Shown one piece after another: positions 2,490-5,822 of a DNA stretch of 33,914 nucleotides (position 1 is the first letter of the stretch; every line of letters begins with the position of its first letter). The stretch is taken from contig JAUXPH010000020.1 of assembly GCA_030683995.1 (NCBI GenBank), positions 1 to 33,914 on the forward strand. The letters run 5' to 3'. A program made the translations under genes and the position numbers. The notes under the pieces are model-generated. The model worked only from the letters and a program-made list of their open reading frames with translations, was not told the origin of the DNA and ran no database searches. Origin of the DNA: Lutibacter sp. Lineage in GTDB: Bacteria; Bacteroidota; Bacteroidia; Flavobacteriales; Flavobacteriaceae.

Positions 2490-2649
2490 TAGTAATTAAA
2501 CAAACCACTATTTTTTTTACTATAAGGTTTTCGTAAATTTAAGAAAAGCATTAAAATATTTTATTTTGTCAATGCAATGGCTTAAATTTTTTTTCAAAAA
2601 AAAATCATTTTAGGCAATATTTTTAATGTTTAACAGTTATATTTACAGT

Positions 2650-2695
2650 AATTAAAGATGATACTACAGTTGTGGGGACGACAAAGTCTTTAATT
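2650..2695. ncRNA. Hairpin with conserved loop, copy 1
   Basis: AATTAAAGA (2650-2658) pairs perfectly with TCTTTAATT (2687-2695). The enclosed segment contains atactacagttgtggggac (2661-2679), then one variable base and ACAA. The same core recurs 81 bases away in copy 2, inside a stem of different sequence. Further pairing is possible inside the loop (ACT with AGT, TTGT with ACAA), leaving GGGGAC exposed. A shared loop with different but still paired stems is typical of a structured RNA or a protein-binding hairpin. The strand is not known. On the minus strand it would lie in the pdhA leader or in a separate small RNA. I do not recognise the family. Confidence 0.55.
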
Positions 2696-2726
2696 TATTT
2701 TTGAAGTTAATTTTCTGATAGATAAG

Positions 2727-2779
2727 AAAAGTTAGAATAATATACTACAGTTGTGGGGACTACAAGTATTATTGCTTTT
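2727..2779. ncRNA. Hairpin with conserved loop, copy 2
   Basis: AATAATA (2736-2742) pairs with TATTATT (2767-2773), with one more T-G pair inside and an outer AAAAG/CTTTT helix (2727-2731 with 2775-2779). The core atactacagttgtggggac (2742-2760) is identical over 19 bases to copy 1 and is again followed by N-ACAA. The stem differs from copy 1 in sequence but keeps its pairing. Confidence 0.55.
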
Positions 2780-2797
2780 ATAGAAAACATCAGAAAT

Positions 2798-2827
2798 AAA
2801 AAGTCTCGAGATTTCTCGAGACTTTTT
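2798..2827 (-). terminator. gcvP terminator
   Basis: AGTCTCGAGA (2802-2811) and TCTCGAGACT (2814-2823) are perfect arms flanked by A and T runs, 23 bases beyond the gcvP stop. The hairpin can work in both directions. It separates gcvP transcription from the hairpins and pdhA. Confidence 0.9.
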
Positions 2828-2849
2828 TTGTTATAAAGGTATTTGGTTT

Positions 2850-5737: not shown

Positions 5738-5822
5738 ATGAAAATTACAGAAAGCACTGCCATTCATATTACTTAATTATAATATTTTGTTAACCAAGAA
5801 ATCCATTATGATTGCAAATCGG

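Follow-up and report, generated by a model that had tools for sequence, protein, structure and literature searches.

Twin hairpins between pdhA and gcvP

The window analysed here, a stretch of 33,914 nucleotides from Lutibacter sp. (contig JAUXPH010000020.1), carries two copies of a 24-nt core between pdhA and gcvP. The copies, ATACTACAGTTGTGGGGACGACAA at 2661-2684 and ATACTACAGTTGTGGGGACTACAA at 2742-2765, are identical at 23 of 24 positions and lie 81 nt apart from start to start. Each is enclosed by an inverted repeat (AATTAAAGA at 2650-2658 with TCTTTAATT at 2687-2695 around the first, AATAATA at 2736-2742 with TATTATT at 2767-2773 around the second); core, spacing and arms agree in position and sequence with a first-pass annotation of this DNA. 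The 16-mer CTACAGTTGTGGGGAC was found at two sites in the window when up to three mismatches were allowed, compared to a mean of 0.05 in shuffled sequences, none of which (0/100) reached two. With the window sequence alone, the folds of the two hairpins were not significant on either the + strand (z of -1.36 and +0.34) or the - strand (-0.16 and -0.25). The first-pass annotation had also taken the two copies as an internal covariation test, which they are not, since their stems cannot be aligned with each other; such a test is supplied by the orthologues. Because window-only folding was unconvincing, relatives were examined, and the case for an RNA structure comes from these relatives and not from the two copies.

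Copies with gcvP and/or pdhA beside the element are termed class A. Thirteen of the 16 class A sequences, the window among them, were aligned (the single-core loci L049 and L070 and a near-copy of the window, L062, were left out), and conservation extends from approximately 40 nt before hairpin 1 to the terminator. The conserved block upstream of the hairpins (2613..2646, + strand) ends in TTATATTTAC and is a candidate promoter of the RNA; the sequence upstream of this block is not conserved. A sigma-70 scan of 2400-2900, which does not cover Bacteroidota promoters, returned three sites compared to 3.5 in shuffles. Hairpin 1 (2650..2695, + strand) consists of the stem AATTAAAGA/TCTTTAATT around the first core; the stem is kept in orthologues, with one pair changed on both sides and others varying by G-U. 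Hairpin 2 (2712..2796, + strand), which encloses the second core, is composed of an outer stem (TTTCTGAT/ATCAGAAA, 2712-2719/2789-2796), a middle stem (AAAA/TTTT, 2727-2730/2776-2779) and an inner stem (AATAATAT/GTATTATT, 2736-2743/2766-2773) in the class A consensus structure. One of the outer pairs is G-C in eight, A-U in four and G-U in one of the 13 sequences, and a covarying pair inside the core is A-U in nine and C-G in four. A conserved intrinsic terminator of the form AAAAAGTCTCGAGA-TT-TCTCGAGACTTTTT with a T run follows at 2798..2829; being palindromic, it can end both a + strand RNA and gcvP on the - strand. The whole unit of two hairpins and terminator (about 2641..2836, + strand, alignment A3) is predicted to give an RNA of ~185 nt. 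The longer outer arms of hairpin 2 and the conservation over ~2613-2836 are features absent from the first-pass annotation. An encoded peptide was rejected, as an ATG at the start of hairpin 1 is present in only 6 of the 13 orthologues in the same alignment.

Distribution, conservation and strand of the element

The exact core was found in 63 stretches in a scan of GTDB genomes, 49 of them titled Lutibacter and three Gelidibacter, with the remaining 11 titled only Flavobacteria, Flavobacteriia, Flavobacteriaceae or Bacteroidetes. It was found in no IMG/VR contig, and a viral origin was rejected on this ground. Of the 67 distinct sequences, 59 were used to build a covariance model (R1); seven near-copies and the third copy in L033, a variant with ACAAC, were left out. 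The model matched 35 of 38 Lutibacter genomes, including 29 of the 29 good ones, with one to six copies each, and further copies are located elsewhere in the 3.08-Mb genome of the window. Within the family, matches were obtained in 5 of 349 genomes and 2 of 237 genera; the second genus gave weak matches only, in two genomes (E of 0.002 and 0.008). In 395 genomes of the order and 395 of the phylum, the model found the element in the genome of the window only, and a looser pattern search was positive in 3 of 199 genomes of the family. Stricter filters were applied when more than 40 genomes were searched, and R1 may miss diverged relatives because it depends strongly on the core. Orthologous copies recur at several fixed loci, with a nearly invariant core loop and stems that vary but stay paired. 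The three Gelidibacter records (L034, L038 and L080, Gelidibacter sp. Bin2_9) contain Lutibacter-like class A, C and B loci with flanking proteins 85-98% identical, and the name on these records may be wrong.

Rfam 15 gave no match at gathering score in the window, nor at the elements of six loci carrying classes A-D. For 2440-2850, 17 weak matches were listed at E up to 5, all of them below their cut-offs; 6S-Flavo (RF01685) was not among them. Flavo-1 (RF01705), with which the element was to be compared according to the first-pass annotation, had no gathering match in the window, so that the element is not Flavo-1. Both are predicted RNA motifs of Bacteroidetes, Flavo-1 being widespread in Flavobacteriaceae (PMC2864571, PMC9723704), but their sequences differ. 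A copy of Flavo-1 was detected in the same genome (L023, 5658-5743), downstream of argS and away from the elements. GUCCY-hairpin is another Bacteroidetes motif (PMC2864571). In the open-licence PMC literature, the core fragment GTTGTGGGGAC together with Flavobacterium and repeat was not found, none of the titles listed was on the motif, and a search for Lutibacter small RNA gave nothing related. Judged from these searches, the twin hairpins belong to a dispersed, apparently undescribed family of putative structured RNAs centred on Lutibacter.

Class A accounts for 15 of the 63 stretches. Class C (17 stretches) is recognized by thioesterase, glycosyltransferase, marR or typA markers and class B (31 stretches) by an OmpA, PorP, dcp or purE marker, present in 29 of the 31; L033 and L048 have none of these, and the OmpA match in L072 and L081 is only 37-38%. 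Class D, found in the genome of the window (L023), consists of several short hairpins arrayed next to a CAP gene. In the second genus, copies are also located near marR, from which we infer that class C may be the oldest class. Twelve of the 31 class B and 4 of the 17 class C stretches have a CAP-domain lipoprotein gene that faces the element. By a regular-expression search that misses diverged ORFs, a small ORF of 46-62 aa, likewise facing the element, was recognized in 17 of the 18 class C loci (counting L021) and in 8 of the 31 class B stretches. The genome of the window has two strong copies of this ORF, both beside elements. No Pfam or NCBIfam family was matched by the three members tested. 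The product is basic (K+R 6-12, D+E 1-3 in the 10 members counted) and has no confident predicted fold (mean pLDDT 61, pTM 0.28). Matches to the small ORF in ~250-aa proteins of many genera were dropped, as these seem by eye to be of SCO1/SenC type (7 loci). The CAP-domain lipoprotein gene is followed by the basic small ORF in L023 (1912-2415 and 2483-2671), L047 (4692-5463) and L138. The small ORF has the motif IYINTLxPxFxYxNxxG..C-x-L, found also in L138, which belongs to another genus without the core. Tandem duplications in L033 (5040-5564) and L047 (4506-4647) seem to carry the 3' tail of OmpA together with a class B hairpin.

The class A consensus structure is paired in 98.4% of 676 cells, compared to at most 59.4% with the 3' partners slid by 1-3 columns, and the class B structure (n = 37, without the L040 copy, which is cut by a contig end) in 98.6% compared to at most 64.2%; the structures were derived from the same alignments and are therefore favoured over the slid versions. 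In class A (n = 13), six pairs and 12 cells are changed on both sides, and 0 of 500 shuffles reached either number. Further pair types are no more numerous than expected by chance, the same number being reached by 238 of 500 shuffles. In class B, four pairs are changed on both sides (1-3 in slid versions, 0/500 shuffles), while the five cells changed on both sides are within the range of slid versions (2-10). Two candidate pairings within the core are GUUGU/ACGAC and [A/C]GUU/GAC[U/G], and a third was obtained when all classes were aligned jointly. In 59 sequences, 19 core columns are invariant, most of which are fixed by the search pattern itself. Covariation in the class A and class B relatives supports the earlier suggestion that a conserved loop on changing stems reflects selection on RNA structure.

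In 106 of 122 sites the better fold is that of the + strand (mean -22.2 versus -16.1 kcal/mol), partly because of the core itself. When arm pairing was scored symmetrically, with G-U and A-C treated alike, 244 G-U and 85 A-C cells were counted; the ratio of 2.87 compares to 1.60 for shuffled arms, so that composition accounts for part of the G-U excess. Sets C2 and A2 show little G-U excess and weak polarity, and a polarity test based on pairs other than G-U had too few pairs in most sets. The G-U wobbles lean towards the + strand, short of proof.

This strand is antisense to both pdhA and gcvP. A tandem leader element or small RNA tied to pyruvate dehydrogenase had been considered in the first-pass annotation; a tandem small-RNA gene is supported as a possibility, and strand, position and absence from 11 of 28 pdhA loci speak against the tie to pyruvate dehydrogenase. 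The motif-independent search for pdhA matched 37 of 38 genomes, and 30 loci were fetched, two of which are cut short upstream. Seventeen of the 28 intact upstream regions contain the core, 13 of these two cores, whereas 11 have no core in the intergenic region or the first 600 nt. In the six core-less regions that were aligned, the region next to pdhA is kept. A pdhA leader was rejected because the favoured strand is antisense, because the unit is farther from pdhA than the conserved region adjoining this gene and because of its absence from the 11 Lutibacter regions. In one of the 11 (L067, genome G227), a twin pair is located beside gcvP on the same contig, ~8 kb from pdhA, showing that unit and pdhA can be separated. 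Further copies are found at OmpA/dcp, thioesterase/marR and CAP loci. Downstream of the unit, the + strand runs through gcvP (- strand), with a 121-aa + strand ORF antisense within gcvP, and the next likely + strand gene is located at 5787; an antiterminator leader was rejected as no likely + strand gene lies before that position. Just upstream of pdhA, a palindrome (AATGCAAAA-nnnnnn-TTTTGCATT, 2465-2488) looks like an operator and is similar in several hairpin-less Lutibacter species.

C-rich translation starts near the elements

In 14 of the 18 Lutibacter class C loci a marR gene is present, which starts with TTG preceded by ..AGTAGTATAGATAATTGTTGTCCCC(C)(C)GAAG. CCCC is located within 12 nt of this start in 14 of 14 cases, and the 13-mer AATTGTTGTCCCC, complementary to the loop sequence GGGGACGACAATT with one G-U, was found in 13 of the 14 leaders. 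Raw ATG calling places the marR start at an internal ATG, and the marR counts therefore rest on the TTG-leader survey and on a set of 335 starts. In this set nine distinct marR starts rank 1-9 for loop pairing, eight of which had been added by a pattern containing GTCCCC, a sequence found in every Lutibacter marR leader surveyed. Among 417 starts tested for loop pairing, nine of the ten best distinct entries were marR (-22.7 to -35.6 kcal/mol, compared to -22.2 and -21.9 kcal/mol for two probably spurious non-marR ORFs), and the tenth was the CAP start of L055, which is directly preceded by an element-like remnant. Equally good pairing with the marR start was reached by 2 of 500 shuffled loops each for the class B/C loop and for hairpin 1, and by 15 of 500 for hairpin 2 of the window. 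Both marR starts of the second genus pair over 15 nt. The marR leaders are orthologues and not independent of each other, and the leader region may also be a promoter. A palindrome upstream of marR (TTGTACATACATTTGATGTATATACAA in L021), kept with small changes in 14 Lutibacter leaders, is a probable MarR operator.

CAP starts have CCCC within 30 nt in 16 of 19 cases and two CCCC in 13 of 19, compared to 1 of 289 other ORFs, whereas the mirror control GGGG was present in none of the 19 CAP starts and in 1 of the 289 other ORFs; these are mechanical calls of at least 100 aa from the window and 66 loci, many of which are orthologous. The single other ORF with CCCC, a lipoprotein-like gene in L033, has three elements next to it. 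CCCC is missing at the CAP genes of L040 and L056, two loci in which the search for the small ORF found none, and at the second CAP gene in L076. The complementarity at CAP starts often ends at CCCC or CCCCACAA. In L138 (genus of G181), where the core pattern is absent, the start of the small ORF and one further ATG also have CCCC, so that C-rich starts need not depend on the RNA. The octamer GTGGGGAC occurs at 15 sites in the genome of the window, which does not exceed a backward control (12 sites); ten of the 15 are in elements. Exact-octamer targets were rejected, as the five sites outside the elements fall inside ORFs and none at a start; the octamer missed marR because the site there reads GTCCCCC. 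Within the window and the element-bearing loci, the translation starts thus examined show the conserved complementarity asked of a trans-acting antisense sRNA; for a discrete transcript, the pointers are the conserved upstream block and the terminator.

Proposed function and related RNAs

Starting from the structure, conservation and complementarity described above, we infer transcription, pairing and repression as follows. The unit would be a gene for a small structured RNA transcribed from the + strand, one of a family centred on Lutibacter in which each RNA presents one or more G-rich loops (GUUGUGGGGACGACAA) of the form UACUAC[A/C]GUUGUGGGGAC[G/U]ACAA. The loops would base-pair with the C-rich translation starts of genes convergent with sister copies, either the marR start (..AAUUGUUGUCCCC..GAAG-UUG) or CAP-lipoprotein starts, for example ACCCCnnnnACCCCACAA-AUG, in which two CCCC are frequent, and pairing at the start would block translation. 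The copy between gcvP and pdhA would be a stand-alone, trans-acting member. We give even chances to this reading, in which G-rich loops lower translation from C-rich starts. Tentatively, and at somewhat below even chances, it may extend to a genus-wide circuit, in which twin G-rich loops read single or paired CCCC at marR, CAP-lipoprotein and other element-adjacent starts, the RNA gene being convergent to its targets and stand-alone trans copies having spread.

The main rival, though unlikely, is a protein-binding RNA, in which an RNA-binding protein would recognize the conserved loop and be titrated or scaffolded by loops in tandem, in a CsrB-like manner; a possible partner is the small basic protein whose gene lies next to many of the elements. 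The core is longer than a typical seed and hardly varies, the change of the in-loop pair from A-U to C-G preserves structure and not sequence, four tandem loops are present in L023 and in L047, and the product of the small ORF is basic, all of which suits such a role. It leaves the C-rich starts unexplained, however, and the candidate partner lacks a confident fold. CsrB/RsmY-type sponge RNAs combine several hairpins with GGA-containing loops in one RNA. The proposed Lutibacter RNA shares this arrangement, but its conserved core is much longer, and CsrA (PF02599) was not found in 38 Lutibacter genomes, compared to 3 of 14 control genomes with CsrA; a CsrA sponge was rejected on this ground.

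Two further explanations were considered. Bidirectional terminators or 3'UTR hairpins between convergent genes, with a loop kept by copying and not by function, would fit the class B hairpins located a few to ~100 nt after the OmpA stop codon in the loci inspected, the second hairpins of class C, which end in T runs, and the terminator of class A. This is improbable, given that a ~24-nt loop kept genus-wide on diverging stems is the opposite of what a terminator needs, that class A has two hairpins besides its terminator and that copies recur at orthologous positions. Very improbable is a mobile palindromic DNA element of the REP type, even though the copies are dispersed, the unit is present or absent at gcvP-pdhA, L033 and L047 contain tandem duplications, and GTAG and CGTC occur close to a small hairpin in the reverse complement. 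REP elements of this kind are short palindromes that carry an unpaired GTAG or CGTC tag at one end, and the GTAG families have a dedicated RAYT transposase (PMC3733652). In the reverse complement of the element, the 3' side of the hairpin has the GTAG, and CGTC is part of the stem. R1 found only one to six copies per genome, at orthologous loci. Pairs changed on both sides and the G-U bias also argue against a DNA element.

For the small RNA with start-pairing loops, the nearest working analogues are FopS and, mirrored, RepG. FopS comprises paralogous sRNAs with RbpB in Bacteroides thetaiotaomicron, with a seed in the single-stranded 5' end before the terminator and SusC-like transporter mRNAs as targets (PMC11697453). 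Like the Lutibacter family, FopS is multicopy in Bacteroidota with one conserved segment common to the paralogues, and it acts near the start codons of its targets, the site also proposed here (PMC11697453). The single-stranded R1 seed of FopS/GibS differs from the Lutibacter segment, which lies in hairpin loops; the two are set apart here by the position of the segment and by the lack of an Rfam match. RepG of Helicobacter pylori is an sRNA that reads a one-base run in an mRNA leader, as is likewise proposed here, with the roles reversed: its target is a G-repeat, whereas the Lutibacter family would use a G-rich sRNA loop on C-rich leaders (PMC8295292).

For this putative structured RNA family, which has no match in Rfam, a target rule is predicted in which G-rich loops recognize C-rich starts, and its two neighbours, the CAP lipoprotein and the basic protein of ~46-62 aa, are both poorly known. 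To our knowledge, few regulatory RNAs of Flavobacteriaceae have assigned functions. The host group rarely uses Shine-Dalgarno sites. If true, the proposed pairing would show a way in which an sRNA marks translation starts where Shine-Dalgarno use is rare, the mirror image of C-rich loops reading G-rich Shine-Dalgarno sites.
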